Source: a virus | Reading direction: 5' to 3' (one strand) | Length of the DNA stretch: 33,245 bases | Virus record (IMG/VR): IMGVR_UViG_3300048536_000027 | Coordinates: 1 to 33,245 of that record | Shown: positions 18,988 to 25,898 of the stretch, one piece after another | Layout of the letters: the number at the start of each line of letters is the position of its first letter | How positions within the stretch are numbered: the first letter of the stretch is position 1 | Made by a program: the position numbers and the translations under genes | Notes under the pieces: generated by a model | Seen by the model: only the letters and a program-made list of their open reading frames with translations | Databases searched by the model: none | Told to the model about the DNA's origin: nothing

Positions 18988-19413
18988 ATGTCAAAGCAAT
19001 CAAATGTAAATGGACTTGCCAAGAACCTGACCAACATCTTTTCTCTTGCTGCTGTTGAACAAAACAACACAACAAACAGATCAGTTCAGTACCACATTCA
19101 GAAGTTCATCGATCATCTGGAATGGTCGATCAACAAGAAGGAAGAGATCAAGACACAGATCTTCGACAAGGGCGTTGAGATGAACGCCAACAGACACGGC
19201 GATGTCGAGGGTGCGCCAGCCTTCGATGCGGGACAACTCCTCCAGTGGGAGCGGGACTGGAACTGGCACAACGATCAGCAGAGCGTCTCAGAAGAGATGC
19301 TCACTTACCTCAAGCAGGCGCAACAGCAGATGTTCCCAGATGAGGTTGCAACTGCCAAGCAGAACGCAGCAGCCACCGCAGATGCCGGTTCCTTCTTCTC
19401 CAAGTCAGCTTAA
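18988..19413 (+). CDS. First early protein, 141 aa, unknown
   Basis: The start is supported by AAGGAG six bases upstream. It is a soluble, helical, Gln/Asn/Glu/Asp-rich protein with Trp residues clustered near 85-95 (QWERDWNWHND) and an Ala/Thr-rich end. There is no HTH, membrane segment or catalytic motif that I recognise. It forms its own transcription unit: a strong terminator follows at once and the next gene has its own promoter. A first-expressed host-takeover or regulatory protein fits this position, but that is inference. Confidence 0.75.
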   Translation: MSKQSNVNGLAKNLTNIFSLAAVEQNNTTNRSVQYHIQKFIDHLEWSINKKEEIKTQIFDKGVEMNANRHGDVEGAPAFDAGQLLQWERDWNWHNDQQSVSEEMLTYLKQAQQQMFPDEVATAKQNAAATADAGSFFSKSA

Positions 19414-19424
19414 CCGGTTGACAC

Positions 19425-19457
19425 AGCCTCGCAGCTTCGGCTGCGGGGCTTTTTCTT
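19425..19457 (+). terminator. Rho-independent terminator with UUCG loop
   Basis: AGCCTCGCAGC pairs with GCTGCGGGGCT (one G-U pair) around a TTCG tetraloop, followed by TTTTCTT. It starts 12 bases after the stop of the 141-aa gene. Confidence 0.92.
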
Positions 19458-19506
19458 TGACCGGTATGCAGCCGCAGCACCGCCTTAGAACGGCCATATA
19501 ACTGCG

Positions 19507-19534
19507 TTGCAAACACAACAATCATTGCTATACT
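19507..19534 (+). promoter_or_regulatory. Sigma70-like promoter of the main early operon
   Basis: TTGCAA (19507-19512), 16-base spacer, TATACT (19529-19534). It lies between the upstream terminator and the ribosome site of the next gene, as expected for a new transcription unit read by host RNA polymerase. Confidence 0.65.
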
Positions 19535-19559
19535 GCAAGTATGCAGTAACGAGGAAAAA

Positions 19560-19730
19560 ATGAAACTTCTATCAAACTTTCTCATCGGAATCGGCATGTT
19601 CGCTCTGATCTTTGGCACATCCATGGCAGAGCCAATGGATAACAGCGCCTTCTTCTTTCAGATCACATGTCTTATCGGCGGCATATGTGTCGCCTTCATC
19701 GGCGGCATTGTCCGCACAATGGCTGAATAG
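19560..19730 (+). CDS. Small membrane protein, 56 aa
   Basis: ATG preceded by GAGGA. The 56 residues contain two hydrophobic segments: about 5-22 (SNFLIGIGMFALIFGT) and about 33-50 (ITCLIGGICVAFIGGIV). The first could be a signal anchor; an AMAE-type cleavage site is not clear. It is the first gene after the promoter, so it is made early. Superinfection exclusion or another membrane effect on the host is possible, but nothing proves it. Confidence 0.7.
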   Translation: MKLLSNFLIGIGMFALIFGTSMAEPMDNSAFFFQITCLIGGICVAFIGGIVRTMAE

Positions 19731-19748
19731 CCAACAAGGAGAACCAAA

Positions 19749-20600
19749 ATGGACGGAACTATCGTCAAAGAAGACCTGTGGCATTTCCCAGTTGAGATGT
19801 GCAGCTTACACGCATCATCAATCCACACCGACAATGTTGAGGTGCCAGAAAATATGGCACGAGCAGTCGTGCGCACTGACACCAATCAAGTGCTGGGTGT
19901 TCACGGAAAAAAGTACAAGCCAATCACCAACATGACTGTCGTAAATGCAATGGTCGATGCTGTACATGAGTCAGGCATCAGCCGTGACTATGACTTGACT
20001 ATCGACACACTCGACGGTGGAGCCAAGATGCGTGGTCGATTCTTGTTCAACGATTTGGTGATCGAACCTGATGTTGGCGATATCATCAAGCACGAGATCC
20101 TGTTTTACAACAGCTACGATGGTAGCTGGGCATTCCAGCAGACCAGCCGTGGTCACAGACTCTGGTGCAAGAATGGCTGTAGTAACGCCATGACTGTAGC
20201 TAACACATGGGCCAAGCACACCACCAATGTGAATGTCAAAGGCAGCACCACCAAGATCGTTGCTGGTCTTGAGACATTCATGCAAGACAAAGATGTATAC
20301 AAAAGCTGGATGACAACCAGAGTTGATGACGAGACAGCTTTTTTATTCTTCAAGATGAAGCTGTGTCGTTACCCAACACAGGATGCAAGCGTCAAAATAA
20401 ATTGGACTCGTTACCAGCAGCTTTGCCGCCAGTGGAACAAAGAAAAAGTTCAACTCGGTCAAAACAAGTGGGCTTTGTACAACGCTTGCACCCACTGGTC
20501 TACGCATACTGGTGACAGCAATACACCGCACGTTGCTAGACGCAATCGTGAGAACCTACTTATCAAAGCACTTAAGCCAGCCAACTGGCATCTTGCATAG
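19749..20600 (+). CDS. DUF932 family phage/plasmid-like protein, 283 aa
   Basis: The sequence has the DUF932 pattern: VLGVHGKKYKPITN near residue 48, a GGAKMRGRFLFND strand near 90, then YNSYDGSWAFQQTSRGHRLWCKNGC near 125-150 and a WAKHTTNV segment. DUF932 proteins are common on phages and plasmids beside recombination genes; their biochemical role is poorly defined. The start is set by AAGGAGAACCAAA. This ribosome site is exactly complementary over 12 bases to the 3' UTR of the operon (25607-25618). Confidence 0.88.
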   Translation: MDGTIVKEDLWHFPVEMCSLHASSIHTDNVEVPENMARAVVRTDTNQVLGVHGKKYKPITNMTVVNAMVDAVHESGISRDYDLTIDTLDGGAKMRGRFLFNDLVIEPDVGDIIKHEILFYNSYDGSWAFQQTSRGHRLWCKNGCSNAMTVANTWAKHTTNVNVKGSTTKIVAGLETFMQDKDVYKSWMTTRVDDETAFLFFKMKLCRYPTQDASVKINWTRYQQLCRQWNKEKVQLGQNKWALYNACTHWSTHTGDSNTPHVARRNRENLLIKALKPANWHLA

Positions 20601-20608
20601 GAGACATC

Positions 20609-20818
20609 ATGTCCACACCATTCATCGTATTGATCGAGGGGGCCATCGGCCTCCTCGACAGGGCCAAAGACAACATCAACGACACAGGCAAGGATGCCTT
20701 TCGCTACGATGTTGAGACAGCCCTTCACTCGCTGAACAGCATCAGCAACAAGTATCACGAGTCACTTGACCGATTCGTTGCCGAACCAATCAACCCATCA
20801 ATCAAAGAGGTGAAATGA
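20609..20818 (+). CDS. Small early protein, 69 aa, unknown
   Basis: TAGGAG lies upstream of the ATG. The product is a 69-residue, helical, acidic protein (FIVLIEGAIGLLDRAKDNI..., YDVETALHSLNSI) with no recognised motif. The stop overlaps the next start (ATGATG/TGA). Confidence 0.7.
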   Translation: MSTPFIVLIEGAIGLLDRAKDNINDTGKDAFRYDVETALHSLNSISNKYHESLDRFVAEPINPSIKEVK

Positions 20819-21033
20819 TGTCGCTCATGCAGCAACGCCACTTTGAATACATTGCAGACAATGTGGCACCACTCTTGCCTTGGCCATCAAAAATACAGGA
20901 CATGGCTGACAAACTAGCAGCAACCAACCCACGCTTTGATCGCAAGAAATTTATAGATCGCGCGACCAAAGCATGGGAGGCAGCCAATCCAATGGAGGAG
21001 TTGGATGACTACATTCCACACCTTGAGCCGTGA
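20815..21033 (+). CDS. Small early protein, 72 aa, unknown
   Basis: Either of two adjacent ATGs (20815 or 20818) follows AGAGG. The helical protein contains HFEYIADNVAPLLPWPSKIQDMADKLAATNP, then a basic DRKKFIDRATKAWEAAN helix. No family recognised. It overlaps the next gene by 29 bases. Confidence 0.68.
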   Translation: MMSLMQQRHFEYIADNVAPLLPWPSKIQDMADKLAATNPRFDRKKFIDRATKAWEAANPMEELDDYIPHLEP

Positions 21034-21265
21034 GTATTATGAGTGTCAAGATTGCGAAGCGCAGATCGAACACTATCATGATCTCAAGCACTACAGCGAA
21101 GACAGCGGGGGCTTCTGCCCCTTCTGTGACAGCGATCATCTAGTCGTGATGCAGTCTTACATTGTGTATCAACAAGTTTACGCAAGATCAGATGATGATG
21201 CTCTTGAGACAGCTTTGGAGATAGACGAATGGCAAACACAAAGTGGAAGTATCACACAGTCATAG
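21005..21265 (+). CDS. Zinc-ribbon-like small protein, 86 aa
   Basis: Two Cys pairs, YECQDCEA near residue 13 and GFCPFCDSD near residue 38, form a CxxC...CxxC zinc-ribbon candidate. Several His residues lie between them. The C-terminal third is acidic and helical (DDDALETALEIDEW). GGAGGAG lies just upstream of the ATG, inside the previous gene. A nucleic-acid-binding role is likely from the ribbon; the partner is unknown. Confidence 0.7.
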   Translation: MTTFHTLSREYYECQDCEAQIEHYHDLKHYSEDSGGFCPFCDSDHLVVMQSYIVYQQVYARSDDDALETALEIDEWQTQSGSITQS

Positions 21266-21444
21266 ACCCTGACTTTGACACTATGTTCTTTGGACCAGTC
21301 GATGTTCATTTCCAAGAAGAACAATACCAAGGCAACAAGTCACAAGGAGACGAGGTACATATCAGGCCATCGGTTGTTAAGAAGCCAGCAATAGGCAAGC
21401 ACTCAGTATGGCCTGAGTTATGGAGACGTAAATGGAGAACCTGA
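21229..21444 (+). CDS. Small early protein, 71 aa, unknown
   Basis: GGAG eight bases before the ATG supports this start, which overlaps the zinc-ribbon gene by 37 bases. The product is polar, with an aromatic N-terminal half (KWKYHTVIDPDFDTMFFGPVDVHF) and a basic Trp-rich end (WPELWRRKWRT). No family recognised. Its stop overlaps the next start as TGATG. Confidence 0.6.
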   Translation: MANTKWKYHTVIDPDFDTMFFGPVDVHFQEEQYQGNKSQGDEVHIRPSVVKKPAIGKHSVWPELWRRKWRT

Positions 21445-21623
21445 TGAGATACGAACTGTATCATTACCTGATGGACTCAATCGCTACCCACTTTGAGATA
21501 CAACTCAAAGATCGTGACCACTACACTGAACAAGACTGGCGTCGATTAGAATACAAACACGACGCGTGTGTCATGTTTATCAATCAGAAACTAGGAGAAC
21601 CAATCAATGAACGATCTGTTTGA
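21444..21623 (+). CDS. Small early protein, 59 aa, unknown
   Basis: The ATG at 21444 shares one base with the upstream stop (TGATG) and follows GGAGAACC, the ribosome element shared by other early genes. An in-frame ATG at 21432 is an alternative. The product (MRYELYHYLMDSIATHFEI..., then an acidic/aromatic segment and NQKLGEPIN) is probably helical. No family recognised. Confidence 0.6.
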   Translation: MRYELYHYLMDSIATHFEIQLKDRDHYTEQDWRRLEYKHDACVMFINQKLGEPINERSV

Positions 21624-21969
21624 CAAGCTGGGATTAGACCAGCCAGATTTTCCAGAGACACCAGCGTACAAGCTGGCTCGTCGTGATGACCCAAGCACCA
21701 GCCATGACGCTGCCGAGCAGCTTGATGTTAGCAAGATGGAACGGATTGTATTAGCTGCAATCACCAGCTTCTCTGCCGATGGCTGCATATCAGACGATGT
21801 GCTGCGCATCCTGCCGAACCATCGATACAGCACAATCACTGCTAGATACAAGCAACTCAAAGAGAAAGGCTTGATCTTTACCGACCATCGCAAACGCAAA
21901 GGTGAGTCTGGTCGCCAGCAACTAATCATGTGGGCAAAGGAGTTTTACACAGAAGATGCGGAAGTTTAG
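21607..21969 (+). CDS. Winged-helix-like phage protein with DPSTSHDAA motif, 120 aa
   Basis: The N-terminus has LARRDDPSTSHDAAEQLD, a motif (DP-x-TSH-x-AA) widespread in phage proteins that precede a winged helix. Residues about 45-105 fit such a fold: an ILAAI-like helix, a DDVLRIL helix, an RYSTITARYKQLKEKGLI recognition helix and a basic wing. It is probably a DNA-binding regulator or replication-linked protein. The start follows AGGAGAACCA, with overlap of the upstream gene. Confidence 0.72.
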   Translation: MNDLFDKLGLDQPDFPETPAYKLARRDDPSTSHDAAEQLDVSKMERIVLAAITSFSADGCISDDVLRILPNHRYSTITARYKQLKEKGLIFTDHRKRKGESGRQQLIMWAKEFYTEDAEV

Positions 21970-22189
21970 ATATCGGCCAGCAATTACCAATGGCAATCCT
22001 GTTGTGCAGTTTCTGTTTAAAGAAATGCACAGGCAAAGATGCTGCCAGATAGATCTTGCAGAAAGAGTTGGCCTTCACAGAGATACATTGAGGAAGTGGC
22101 GCACTACGCATACGCCACGAGTCAATGATATCGAAGCCGCTCTCAACTATCTGGGCTACACACTCAAGCCAATACGCATCAAAGATTGA
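21956..22189 (+). CDS. Small HTH (XRE-like) protein, 77 aa
   Basis: The segment QIDLAERVGLHRDTLRKWRTTHTPRVNDIEAALNYLGYTL is a classic XRE-type helix-turn-helix with following helices. The N-terminal 30 residues are basic and aromatic. It probably binds DNA as a small repressor or activator. It overlaps the winged-helix gene by 14 bases; an AGGAG lies rather far (13 bases) upstream. Confidence 0.75.
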   Translation: MRKFRYRPAITNGNPVVQFLFKEMHRQRCCQIDLAERVGLHRDTLRKWRTTHTPRVNDIEAALNYLGYTLKPIRIKD

Positions 22190-22220
22190 CATGACTGCGA
22201 CATTGCAGGAGTATCCCTGC

Positions 22221-22424
22221 ATGAAAAGCTACATGACAACGCTCACTAACAGAGCCAAACGCCACAAAGTTCCGCTCAAAGATGCTTTCATCAGAGCGGG
22301 GCTGCCCGACTCAACATATTACAGAGCCAAGCAAGGCAAGGAGTTACGATACGAAACAGCTAAACTCGTGTTTGATTATATAACCAATGCCAGCCAAAAA
22401 CAGACGCATCAAAAAAAATCTTAA
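22221..22424 (+). CDS. Second small HTH protein, 67 aa
   Basis: AGGAG nine bases upstream favours this ATG; an in-frame ATG at 22191 would add ten residues. The core (LTNRAKRHKVPLKDAFIRAGLPDSTYYRAKQG) has the spacing of a helix-turn-helix in which the second helix starts after LPDS. The protein ends in a polar Gln/Lys tail. It follows another HTH gene, so the pair may form a regulatory switch. Confidence 0.65.
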   Translation: MKSYMTTLTNRAKRHKVPLKDAFIRAGLPDSTYYRAKQGKELRYETAKLVFDYITNASQKQTHQKKS

Positions 22425-22719
22425 TCAAGGCAAGTCACAGACATGCGAAGCATGTGGAGTAGTGACACCTTGGTTTGTCTGCCCTGTTGCTGGCATCAAC
22501 CCGCCGTCTTGGTACACAATCTGCCTTGACTGCTATCAGGAGAACCAATGGCAAACAAGAATCGCGACAAGGGAAACTACCACGAAAGGTGGTTCGTCAA
22601 CTGGCTACAAGAACTCGGCTTCACAGCCAAACGCCAGCCCCTCTCAGGCGCACTCGGAGGAGAATACTCCGGCGACATCATCTGGAAACTCGGACGACTT
22701 GAGTTGGTGGTGGAAGTAA
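22387..22719 (+). CDS. Small zinc-finger-like protein, 110 aa, long overlap with nuclease gene
   Basis: Residues 20-50 contain CEACG and CLDC, separated by a FVCPVAGINPPSWYTI stretch, forming a CxxC...CxxC zinc site. The first 15 residues are basic. From about residue 54 the frame runs inside the next gene (172-base overlap) and becomes Ser/Thr/Asn-rich, which may simply be the off-frame shadow of the nuclease. The upstream gene is overlapped by 38 bases, and no clear ribosome site precedes the ATG. Confidence 0.55.
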   Translation: MPAKNRRIKKNLNQGKSQTCEACGVVTPWFVCPVAGINPPSWYTICLDCYQENQWQTRIATRETTTKGGSSTGYKNSASQPNASPSQAHSEENTPATSSGNSDDLSWWWK

Positions 22720-23177
22720 AATACAGAGACAAGTCAAACTTCCCCAATCCATTTACCGTTGTGCGCGACGTTGCATTTTACAAACGTAAAACAGGCAAGC
22801 CCAAAACTCTGGTAATCTTTGATGGCGATGTGTTCGAGCGAGACATTGCCCCGCTACTCACAAAGAAAAAGCAAGTAGCCAAGTCAGGGCTTACAGAAGA
22901 TTGGCAACCAAGTTCTGATCTACAACAGGACATTGATAACAAGTTAGGAGCAAAGATAAACCATGACGCTGAAACAGATAAGTTCCGCAATCACCACCTC
23001 TCGAAAGGCAACACATTCAAACGACCTGACCTCGCTTATAGAAAGTGGTGTCGTCAAGCAGTTGAGTGGGGAGCAGCAGCAACGAGCAGTGGCTCGTCTA
23101 TTGGAAGTAAAAGATCCGGCAAAGGTGGACAGCAATCTGGTCACTTCGCTGGCATCCTTGCCGGGCTTGACGATTAG
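22548..23177 (+). CDS. PD-(D/E)XK nuclease, Holliday-junction-resolvase-like, 209 aa
   Basis: Residues 1-110 show the PD-(D/E)XK layout: NYHERWFVNWLQELGF with Glu near 13, then a QPLSGALGGEYSGDII segment with Asp near 43, then LVVEVKYRDKSNF with the E-x-K pair near 54-56. This is the arrangement of Hjc-type resolvases and related phage nucleases. A branch-resolving role fits the neighbouring exonuclease and annealing genes. AGGAGAACCA precedes the ATG. From about residue 140 the protein overlaps the next gene and is Ser/Gly/Lys-rich, so its tail may be unstructured. Confidence 0.78.
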   Translation: MANKNRDKGNYHERWFVNWLQELGFTAKRQPLSGALGGEYSGDIIWKLGRLELVVEVKYRDKSNFPNPFTVVRDVAFYKRKTGKPKTLVIFDGDVFERDIAPLLTKKKQVAKSGLTEDWQPSSDLQQDIDNKLGAKINHDAETDKFRNHHLSKGNTFKRPDLAYRKWCRQAVEWGAAATSSGSSIGSKRSGKGGQQSGHFAGILAGLDD

Positions 23178-23601
23178 TCCTGTTGAACGCACACGATTCC
23201 CTCGTGATGCTGACATACAAATCACACTGTTGCGCTACGACATACAATGTGAGGACGAACAGTCACTGGATCGTGCGTTAAACGCCGTACAAGCGTCACT
23301 GACGCCCCTCTCGCCAGAAGATATAGGCAAGCAGCTAACTATGCTTGCCACGCTTGTGGTGAAGCCCAGTGGCGAAACAGCAGAAGATCAGACAATCAGG
23401 ATCAAATCGCTCACATCACAACTGATAAAGTATCCTGCGGACATCGTGCTGTATGCCGTCCAGAAGGTCGCTGAGTCGTGTACCTTCTGGCCGGCATACG
23501 CCGAGTTCCACAAGCATATTCATTGGCGCATAGAAAAGAGGCAGAAACTAATGGATGCACTTGTATCCAAGAAGGTTGCGCTTACTGCATACTCGCAGTA
23601 G
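22963..23601 (+). CDS. Early protein, 212 aa, possible helicase-loader-like
   Basis: The sequence looks genuine: a helical N-terminal half (LVTSLASLPGL, RDADIQITLLRYDI) and a C-terminal part with SLTSQLIKYPADIVLYAVQKV, TFWPAYAEFHKHI and a charged RIEKRQKLMDAL helix. That WP-x-x-AE pattern recalls phage proteins near replication genes, some annotated as helicase loaders. This is a weak resemblance, and no Walker motif is present. The gene overlaps the nuclease gene by 215 bases; AGGAG lies 12 bases upstream of the ATG. Confidence 0.6.
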   Translation: MTLKQISSAITTSRKATHSNDLTSLIESGVVKQLSGEQQQRAVARLLEVKDPAKVDSNLVTSLASLPGLTISPVERTRFPRDADIQITLLRYDIQCEDEQSLDRALNAVQASLTPLSPEDIGKQLTMLATLVVKPSGETAEDQTIRIKSLTSQLIKYPADIVLYAVQKVAESCTFWPAYAEFHKHIHWRIEKRQKLMDALVSKKVALTAYSQ

Positions 23602-23623
23602 AATACATACAAAGGAGAACCAA

Positions 23624-24427
23624 ATGAACCGAATAGGATTTATCGGCGGTAGCGACATGCGCCGCATCATGCAAGGTGACTGGATATCACTCTGGGAAGA
23701 GAAGACAGGACGCAAAAAGCCTGACGATCTATCAGATGTATTGCCGGTGCAGCTTGGTACATTCACCGAACAGTTCAACATCAACTGGTTTCAGCAGCAG
23801 ACAGGCAAGCAAGTGTCTGCCAGCCAGCATGAGATCAAGCTGGATGTAGACGGTGTGCCATGCAAAGGGATGCTTGACGGTCTTGTTGAGGGTGTCACAC
23901 CAATCGAGTGCAAACACACCTACGACAACAACACCATCGAAAATGTACTCAAGCAGTACATGCCACAGATCCAGTTCTACATGTGGATTGGCAACTACAC
24001 AGAATGTTATCTGTCAGTCTTGTTTGGCAACAGACGCTGGGAGTCAGTGCGTGTATCTCGCGCTGATGATTACGTCGAGCGGATGCGTGTGCATCTCAAG
24101 ACATTCTGGCAGCTTGTTGTAGATGACACACCACCAGCAGAGGCTGACGAGGTGTATGGCAATCATGTTGCCTCGCCCAACACAGACAAGATTCCTGTCA
24201 ACGATATGGTCAAGCGTGATGCGTCTGGTGACAATGAGTTCATCAGCCGGTGCCATGACTACATCGAGCAGCAGGGCAATGCACAACTATTTGAATCTGC
24301 CAAAGCCGATCTCAAGGCAATGGTAGGCGATGGAGAGCGAGAGGTGTACTGCGATCTCCTCACCATCAAGCGCGACAAGCGCGGATCACTTCGTATCGCA
24401 GTAAAGGAGAACCACTATGACGACTAA
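23624..24427 (+). CDS. YqaJ-type viral exonuclease, 267 aa
   Basis: The domain begins at once: GFIGGSDMRRIMQGDW (residues 3-18). The catalytic pattern of the lambda-exonuclease-like YqaJ family follows: LGTFTEQFN near 50, GMLDGLVEGVTPIECKH near 87-105 (Asp, then E-x-K), and QIQFYMWI near 120. These enzymes degrade one strand of duplex DNA from ends, producing substrate for the annealing protein encoded next. AAGGAGAACCAA precedes this ATG, which is why the longer upstream frame was rejected. The stop overlaps the ERF gene by 11 bases. Confidence 0.9.
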   Translation: MNRIGFIGGSDMRRIMQGDWISLWEEKTGRKKPDDLSDVLPVQLGTFTEQFNINWFQQQTGKQVSASQHEIKLDVDGVPCKGMLDGLVEGVTPIECKHTYDNNTIENVLKQYMPQIQFYMWIGNYTECYLSVLFGNRRWESVRVSRADDYVERMRVHLKTFWQLVVDDTPPAEADEVYGNHVASPNTDKIPVNDMVKRDASGDNEFISRCHDYIEQQGNAQLFESAKADLKAMVGDGEREVYCDLLTIKRDKRGSLRIAVKENHYDD

Positions 24428-24857
24428 GAATCTAGCCACAGCGCTAATCAAGTTCCACGACAGTGGAGCAGCAGCCAAGAAGGGTGCAGCCAATCCCTTC
24501 TTCAAGTCCAAGTATGCCAGCCTAGAGGAAGTCATTGAGACTGTCCGCGCAGAAGCTGGCAAGGTTGGGCTGACATTCACCCAGCTTGTCGACTTCGATG
24601 AGCATCACATCTTTGTAACCACAACAATCATGCACGAGTCTGGAGACTCAATGACTGGTCGCACACCAGTGCTTACCAAAGACAATACCGACCCGCAAAA
24701 GATGGGCAGCGGCATTACCTACGCCAAGCGTTATGGTTTGCAAGCAGCCTTTGGTCTGCCGTCAGAGGACGATGATGGCAATGCAGCCAGCGTGTCCTCA
24801 CCCAAAGTAACCAAAGTTGCCAAGAAGAGCAGTGCACCAGCAGAGGAGGCTTGGTAA
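24417..24857 (+). CDS. erf: ERF family single-strand annealing protein, 146 aa
   Basis: The ERF pattern is clear: LIKFHDSGAAAKKGAANPFFKSKYASLEEVIE (about residues 10-40), then a beta-strand segment, and KMGSGITYAKRYGLQAAFGLPSEDDDGN (about 100-127). ERF proteins form rings that anneal complementary single strands and work with an exonuclease, here encoded just upstream. The C-terminal 20 residues are a flexible Lys/Ser/Ala linker. The start follows AAAGGAGAACC. It is short for the family but contains the whole core. Confidence 0.9.
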   Translation: MTTKNLATALIKFHDSGAAAKKGAANPFFKSKYASLEEVIETVRAEAGKVGLTFTQLVDFDEHHIFVTTTIMHESGDSMTGRTPVLTKDNTDPQKMGSGITYAKRYGLQAAFGLPSEDDDGNAASVSSPKVTKVAKKSSAPAEEAW

Positions 24858-25213
24858 TGCTAGGAATCAACAAACGACTCGACAAGATCGAGTACCGACT
24901 CGCGCGTATCGACAAGATGCTTGAAGACATGCTGACAGTTCCAAAACAGGTACCGTCAGTTGTAGTTCACAAACCTGTATCAGAAAGCAGACAACGCAAG
25001 ACAGACTGGTATCCAGAAAGTCTAGCCAAGTTCATGCTGACCAGATACAGAACCATTGAAGATGCAATGGCTAAGTTTGGATACACCAAAGAGTCAATCA
25101 GAACCTACATCAAGAACATGCGCAAAGCAGGACTGCCTATTAAAACTCGCGGACGCGCACCAACTCAATACAAGATCGACAACCCACACGGAGGGGCAAA
25201 GCCCAATGGCTGA
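24857..25213 (+). CDS. Small DNA-binding-like protein, 118 aa
   Basis: The ATG shares one base with the ERF stop (TAATG) and follows GAGGAGG. The N-terminal helix (INKRLDKIEYRLARIDKMLEDML) is a likely short coiled coil for dimerisation. The C-terminal half (YRTIEDAMAKFGYTKESIRTYIKNMRKAGLPIKTRGR) has the look of a helix-turn-helix of resolvase or sigma type with a basic wing. It lies between ERF and the SSB-like gene, suggesting a role in recombination or early regulation. Confidence 0.68.
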   Translation: MLGINKRLDKIEYRLARIDKMLEDMLTVPKQVPSVVVHKPVSESRQRKTDWYPESLAKFMLTRYRTIEDAMAKFGYTKESIRTYIKNMRKAGLPIKTRGRAPTQYKIDNPHGGAKPNG

Positions 25214-25598
25214 ATACGACAACACAAACTCCGGCATCGCCGGTAAACCTTGGCCCGAACAGAAGCTGCTGCTTAACGGCAAGCTGAATGTATTTGGTGA
25301 AGACATGCCAATCGTTATTGTCACAGCAGAAACAAACACAGGCGAGAAGCGCCTAGAGGTCTTCCAGAAGATCGGTGTTATGTTTAGCAACGACAAGAAC
25401 GGCAATGACAAAGCGCCAGATTACTCAGGCCCACTCGACGGCTTGCATCAAGACTGGCGCGTTGCTGGTTGGCGCGGTGAGAAAGATGGACGCAAGTTCA
25501 TGTCACTCAAAGTCAGCGAGAAACAAAAGCAACAACAAGAAGTAGAACCACAGCAAGAAGTTGCTTCACAAGAGGTCGATGATGATATACCTTTCTAG
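25206..25598 (+). CDS. SSB-like protein with acidic DDDIPF tip, 130 aa
   Basis: The ATG at 25206 follows GGAGGGG; the longer upstream frame is off-frame of the previous gene. The N-terminal 100 residues are beta-rich with a GVMFSND...PDYSGPLDG...WRVAGWRGEKDGRKFMSLKV pattern that recalls DUF736-type small OB-like proteins. A Gln/Glu-rich linker follows and the chain ends DDDIPF, the hallmark of bacterial SSB tails that recruit partner enzymes. A single-strand DNA-binding role beside exonuclease and ERF is likely. Confidence 0.75.
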   Translation: MAEYDNTNSGIAGKPWPEQKLLLNGKLNVFGEDMPIVIVTAETNTGEKRLEVFQKIGVMFSNDKNGNDKAPDYSGPLDGLHQDWRVAGWRGEKDGRKFMSLKVSEKQKQQQEVEPQQEVASQEVDDDIPF

Positions 25599-25676
25599 GC
25601 AGTCGGTTTTGGTTCTCCGGCTTAACTCCTAGCAAACTGACGGTCAGACCAACCTCACGGTCTGACCGTCTTTCTT
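25595..25676 (+). ncRNA. Candidate 3'-UTR antisense RNA with anti-ribosome-site loop
   Basis: Between the SSB-like stop and the terminator, AGTCGG (25601-25606) can pair with CCGGCT (25617-25622), with CTAGG/CCTAG as an outer stem. The 10-base loop TTTTGGTTCT plus two stem bases forms TTTTGGTTCTCC (25607-25618). That is the exact complement of GGAGAACCAAAA at the DUF932 ribosome site, and of 8-11 bases at five other early genes. The RNA would end at the perfect terminator. Structure and function are predicted by eye only. Confidence 0.35.
25639..25676 (+). terminator. Rho-independent terminator of the early operon
   Basis: A perfect 12-bp stem, GACGGTCAGACC with GGTCTGACCGTC, 8-base loop, then TTTCTT. 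It closes the early operon, yet the next gene's ribosome site begins 3 bases after the T-run. Confidence 0.95.
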
Positions 25677-25688
25677 ATGGAGACAACA

Positions 25689-25898
25689 ATGATACTTGTA
25701 ATACCAAGAAACGATGGCTTGAAGATTAGCGTAGAAGGCAAGCTGCATCATAAAGACATGACGCCAGAAGAAATGATGCAGATGGGTATTAGATTCCAGC
25801 AAGCCGCATTAGAAATGATTAGGCTGGAACAGCTAGAAGCCGCATTCGATCAACCAGACGCTGAGCACGGTTCGGCACCTGTCGATACCAACGGCTAG
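25689..25898 (+). CDS. Small protein beyond the early terminator, 69 aa, unknown
   Basis: The ATG follows GGAG by 6 bases; an in-frame ATG at 25677 lies on top of that ribosome site and is less likely. The 69-residue acidic, Met/Gln/Glu-rich helical protein (NDGLKISVEGKLHHKDM..., QQAALEMIRLEQLEAAF) has no recognised motif. It sits directly after a strong terminator without a visible promoter, so it may be made only by readthrough. Its last 80 bases overlap the lysozyme gene on the other strand. Confidence 0.6.
   Translation: MILVIPRNDGLKISVEGKLHHKDMTPEEMMQMGIRFQQAALEMIRLEQLEAAFDQPDAEHGSAPVDTNG

Follow-up and report, generated by a model that had tools for sequence, protein, structure and literature searches.

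Organization of the recombination operon and its 3' end

The window analyzed here is a virus record of 33,245 bases. Its + strand carries, between 19.5 and 25.7 kb, an operon that encodes a DUF932 protein, a resolvase/replication-like protein, a YqaJ/RecE-like exonuclease, an ERF annealing protein and an SSB-like protein with a DDDIPF tail. Gene content and orientation suggest that this operon is expressed early, and we refer to it as such below. The relevant features, including the ribosome-binding sites (RBS) that are predicted targets of a short seed at the operon end, are the following:

19507..19534, + strand: promoter-like TTGCAA-16-TATACT preceding the operon, from a consensus scan only
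19738..19749, + strand: predicted target RBS of the DUF932 gene, 12-nt complement, duplex of -25.4 kcal/mol
21434..21441, + strand: predicted target RBS of the open reading frame starting at 21444, 8-nt complement
21594..21603, + strand: predicted target RBS of a 120-aa gene (phrog_1123), 10-nt complement
22539..22548, + strand: predicted target RBS of the Holliday-junction-resolvase-like/replication gene, 10-nt complement
23614..23624, + strand: predicted target RBS of the YqaJ/RecE-type exonuclease, 11-nt complement
24406..24414, + strand: predicted target RBS of the ERF ssDNA-annealing gene, 9-nt complement
25206..25598, + strand: SSB-like gene (phrog_7364, tail DDDIPF), followed in its 3' UTR by the element; the RBS of this gene, GGAGGGGCAAAGCCC, is not targeted
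25595..25632, + strand: anti-ribosome-site hairpin beginning at the SSB stop codon; position kept in relatives, stems mostly different
25607..25618, + strand: seed TTTTGGTTCTCC, of which 25607-25616 are unpaired loop bases; exactly complementary to sites at six early starts and covarying with the RBS in relatives
25639..25676, + strand: intrinsic terminator with a 12-bp stem and the tail TTTCTT

Directly upstream of the operon, a strong terminator (AGCCTCGCAGCTTCGGCTGCGGGGCT-TTTT) is present on the + strand at 19425-19450, followed by the promoter-like site at 19507-19534.

The 3' end of the operon is predicted to fold into two hairpins (z = -5.9; none of 200 shuffles is as stable), the first with the loop 25607-25616 closed by AGUCGG/CCGGCU and an outer stem CUAGG/CCUAG, and the second being the 12-bp terminator. 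As in OppZ and CarZ, the element thus lies between the last stop codon of the operon and an intrinsic terminator; a consensus scan found no promoter-like site near it. In an alignment of seven relatives, several pairs of the terminator have changed on both sides with pairing retained. A preliminary description of this DNA had called the terminator perfect, which is an overstatement given the TTTCTT tail. Its coordinates and match lengths, by contrast, were borne out base for base: TTTTGGTTCTCC is the exact complement of the DUF932 ribosome site and can pair with 8-11 bases at a further five early genes. The core motif of these sites, GGAGAAC, occurs six times on the + strand of the window, always at early gene starts, and once on the - strand, where the single copy is the hairpin loop; depletion of the motif on the late strand is not significant in the window alone (0 versus 1.1 expected).

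When the segment 25595-25676 was shuffled with dinucleotide composition preserved, complementarity of 12 nt to an early start arose in 10 of 3000 shuffles, and matches of at least 9 nt to five starts in 15 of 3000. Fewer than 1% of the shuffles therefore match as well as the actual sequence, which makes chance unlikely, though possible, from the window alone. A control with windows of the same genome was set aside because antisense windows of starts match by definition.

Relatives of the window phage and distribution of the element

The head-tail connector is encoded on the - strand of the window, which suggests a podovirus-like phage. Two cultured phages are related by this protein, Pelagibacter phage Hodr at 60% identity and Methylophilales phage MEP301 at 37%, and neither has the element or GGAGAAC starts. 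The Hodr record (OQ414635.1) is named Pelagibacter phage EXVC031P Hodr, and its locus tags read EXVC032PBaldr. A DNA similarity search with 19001-25700 produced no match to phage records, and the SSB protein produced none to the phage collection; the exonuclease produced 14 weak matches in all, with Hodr the closest (35%). For comparative analysis, we collected about 270 related loci or phage contigs by SSB and exonuclease-alignment searches and clustered them at 90% exonuclease identity, which resulted in 76 clusters. Three of the relatives (L271, L272 and L273) come from metagenome-assembled genomes labelled Opitutae, Rhodobacterales and Euryarchaeota; these are probably mis-binned phage contigs, so the host labels there are unreliable.

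The motif GTTCT(C/T) is present in the stretch directly after the SSB gene in 50 of the 76 clusters. Among near relatives (L016-L028), stem and terminator vary and the loop part TTTGGTTCTCC is constant; in distant relatives, the stem is mostly unrelated, and GTTCT(C/T) is kept right after the SSB stop, usually with a terminator next. Element and GGAGAAC starts occur together in 50 clusters and are both missing in 13, and no cluster has a called element without such starts. The remaining 13 clusters have 1-3 GGAGAAC starts without a called element; several of them belong to a clade in which the element is found one gene further on. The preliminary description had proposed that the operon 3' UTR encodes an RNA aimed at the ribosome sites of the same operon, and had named relatives with GGAGAACCA at their starts and no complementary loop as evidence against it. 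This search did not refute the proposal, which is strongly supported: loop and sites are retained together, change together and, for the most part, disappear together.

In L038, L046, L049, L051 and L071, an anti-RBS stretch is located 365-530 nt past the SSB stop and downstream of the following gene, where it occupies a hairpin of its own, the loop of the terminator, or both. The target sets of this clade are weaker, and the complementarity reaches the 5' side of the Shine-Dalgarno (SD) sequence, as in L046 (TTCTCCATTCTC with GAGAATGGAGAA), where the loop is complementary to the exonuclease site over 12 nt. In a lineage that has no GGAGAAC starts (L074, L081, L082, L083 and L085), the SSB gene is followed instead by a hairpin containing a TTAAGTAGCTACTTAA-like palindrome.

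A scan of the operon region for the 10-mer complementary to the largest number of starts ranked the SSB 3' UTR strictly first in 31 of the 43 genomes with the element and tied for first in 4. Furthermore, in 17 near-full genomes GGAGAAC is found 127 times on the early strand versus 21 times on the other, and approximately 14 of these 21 copies are the element itself.

Covariation of the loop and the ribosome sites

The loop flank and the extension of the ribosome site covary among the relatives, in the combinations TGG/GGAGAACCA, TTA/GGAGAACTAA, GTG/GGAGAACAC and GTCTG/GGAGAACAGAC. The window-type pair consists of the loop UUUUGGUUCUCC and the site GGAGAACCAAA, and L246 provides a natural TTA-type pair (GATTAGTTCTCC with GGAGAACTAA). 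Other lineages combine (G)AUUAGUUCUCC with GGAGAACUAA (L032, L246, L151, L118 and L257), AGUGUGUUCUCC or AGUGUUCUCU with GGAGAACACA (L089 and L090, respectively), GUCUGUUCUCC with a GGAGAACAGAC site (L122 and L253) and GGUGGUUCUCC with GGAGAACCAC (L248); the loop of L241 is GUAGUUCUCC, and GGAGAACUAC is among its sites. In L098, L112 and L243, which carry GGUGGUUCUUC, pairing is kept through a G.U pair, and the G.U-compatible seed variants GGTGGTTCTTC and GTGTTCTCT co-occur with intact RBSs. These combinations have the appearance of natural compensatory changes between seed and sites.

For a permutation test, we called elements in 34 lineages by a rule that took no account of the extension. 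On average, 1.46 nt of the extension match, compared to 0.54 +/- 0.12 nt with loops swapped, and none of 20,000 swaps between lineages was as good. A chance complement within an ordinary terminator region, against which the window alone gives a p value of only ~0.003-0.005, is refuted by this result and by the covariation, and we consider its probability negligible. The first extension base agrees in 30 of the 34 lineages, the mismatches being in L173, L235, L033 and L094. On the exonuclease tree, a minimum of 10 changes is required at the first loop base and of 12 at the RBS base, and the tree shows that the match between them is not one inherited event. In phylogenetically independent pairs, loop and RBS never differ in opposite directions; such pairs are too few for significance alone, so the permutation test carries the statistics. 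In the clade around L161, L178 and L182, the seed flank is paired and only a 6-7 nt core is exposed, which fits the weaker extension match observed there. Core accessibility averages only 0.53 across the lineages.

The same data bear on the possibility that a phage protein binds GGAGAAC and its inverse, in DNA or RNA (as an operator or iteron), and that no base pairing is involved. Inverted copies of one motif could indeed be protein sites, but the forward copies stand at ribosome distance from the starts, the inverse copy lies in a UTR hairpin upstream of a terminator, and the lineage-specific changes keep complementarity, G.U-compatible forms included. We therefore regard protein binding as very improbable; base pairing of the seed with the ribosome sites is, on the comparative evidence, well supported.

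Three further features of the region were rejected. The second anti-SD stretch of the preliminary description, AACTCCTAG (25624-25632), has most of its bases paired in the outer stem and lacks a matched extension, and is not supported as an independent seed. The UUGG of the loop does fit the YUNR U-turn pattern as had been proposed, but YUNR is not a conserved feature, being present in only 19 of the 34 lineages. Pairing with the RBS directly downstream (25677/25689) is not conserved in relatives.

Genes that carry the extended ribosome site

The extended ribosome site can be viewed as a tag, the distribution of which differs among the genes of the operon. It is found in frame at the exonuclease in 31 of 34 lineages, at ERF in 13 of 14 and at the 120-aa gene in 8 of 10, and at the resolvase in 13 of 31; DUF932 is tagged in 12 of 16 cases by one start caller and in 8 of 16 by another. 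The SSB start, in contrast, has the tag in only 2 of 34 lineages, though GGAG is present there in 29 of 34 (exonuclease and ERF versus SSB, Fisher p = 5e-16). Given that the exonuclease and ERF are tagged and SSB almost never is despite its GGAG, the tag is not simply the ribosome site of the phage.

A putative operon-terminal regulatory RNA

We propose that a regulatory RNA, consisting of a hairpin that would expose an anti-ribosome-site seed and closed by the operon terminator, is encoded at the 3' end of the recombination/replication operon; in one sub-clade, the seed would be exposed between two hairpins instead. The seed is predicted to pair with the RBSs of the exonuclease, ERF, DUF932, resolvase-like and small genes of the same operon. 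Because it covers the SD core, pairing should block 30S binding, and it is quite likely that translation is thereby lowered. Because loop and sites have changed together in evolution, it is most likely that the transcript turns its own translation off. The position of the element at the very end of the transcript implies that it would become active only once the operon has been fully made, as a delayed negative feedback or an early shut-off. Escape would be expected for the SSB gene, adjacent to the element, and for almost all genes of the opposite strand, which have no seed match. Collectively, these observations are best explained by an anti-ribosome-site RNA at the end of the operon that acts as a repressor of the same operon, a reading to which we assign a probability of about 0.77.

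The sign of the effect is a separate matter because base pairing alone does not reveal it, and the pairing might be positive or structural, for instance shielding the mRNA from degradation or setting the timing of reinitiation. Pairing over the SD core itself, however, as expected from this seed, normally blocks 30S binding, and such a role appears improbable.

How the RNA would reach its targets can be envisaged in two ways. The absence of a promoter-like site nearby is consistent with an RNA derived from the 3' UTR, which would probably be freed by RNase cleavage, as OppZ is; we suppose, with some preference, that an RNA of ~80 nt is released in this way and acts in trans. Alternatively, the 3' hairpin might pair intramolecularly, reaching back to a single RBS of the polycistronic mRNA at any given time, with no separate small RNA. 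Since element and targets are on one transcript, all the facts fit this alternative equally well, the lack of a promoter-like site included; but a single seed cannot cover six or more RBSs of one molecule simultaneously, and cis pairing has been excluded for OppZ, the closest characterized case, where blocking RNase E release abolished repression (PMC7398697). We thus view cis pairing as unlikely, albeit a serious contender. Repression by an operon-terminal RNA, the reading that we prefer, is compared with known systems below.

Comparison with known regulatory RNAs and implications

OppZ and CarZ are autoregulatory 3'-UTR-derived small RNAs of Vibrio cholerae that repress their own operons (PMC7398697). 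Like these, the phage RNA would pair, as judged by complementarity and covariation, with translation starts of the operon from the 3' end of which it derives, and OppZ likewise spares one gene of its operon (PMC7398697). The differences are that OppZ and CarZ are bacterial and that OppZ pairs at one start (oppB), its effect spreading by Rho termination (PMC7398697), whereas the phage element matches many starts with a common extended RBS, and seed and RBSs have co-evolved. NfeR1, of the alpha-r14 family of alpha-rhizobia, has a conserved anti-SD motif in unpaired regions of hairpins, the stems of which vary freely (PMC10746234). It resembles the phage element in this conserved motif on variable stems, and silences its targets at the initiation region; unlike the phage element, it has its own transcriptional regulators (LsrB and NtrC), three CCUCCUCCC motifs and scattered chromosomal targets (PMC10746234). 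The phage hairpin instead has one GUUCUCC-type seed in a 3' UTR and targets in the same operon, and CCUCCUCCC motifs in three hairpins, as in alpha-r14, were not found in it. In the c4 antisense RNA of phages P1 and P7, an RBS is blocked by complementary sequences that are probably located in loops (PMC12197685). This, too, is a phage RNA complementary to an RBS, but c4 controls the antirepressor ant in temperate phages (PMC12197685), whereas the element described here is at an operon 3' end and appears to be aimed at many starts. Rfam, including the C4 antisense RNA family, gave nothing at gathering or permissive thresholds (the window and 8 relatives at gathering); the only score was that of pemK (14.8 versus a threshold of 34.8), a chance score. 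Our search of the open-licence literature yielded no account of a phage operon with a common ribosome-site tag read by an operon-terminal RNA.

On balance, we lean toward a more general picture in which a large family of uncultured marine podovirus-like phages possesses a lineage-specific extended SD mark on its recombination/replication genes, and the seed of an operon-terminal RNA reads this mark, silencing many genes in trans and sparing SSB and late genes, with mark and seed having switched together repeatedly. Autoregulation by 3'-UTR RNAs is known from a few bacterial operons; if the proposal is correct, these phages would provide a natural multi-target version that has been co-evolving over many lineages, as well as an RNA-only answer to the question of how lytic phages turn off early genes. 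The lineages offer ready natural compensatory variants for testing. One RNA and one common ribosome-site tag, together providing whole-operon feedback, may represent a compact design rule.
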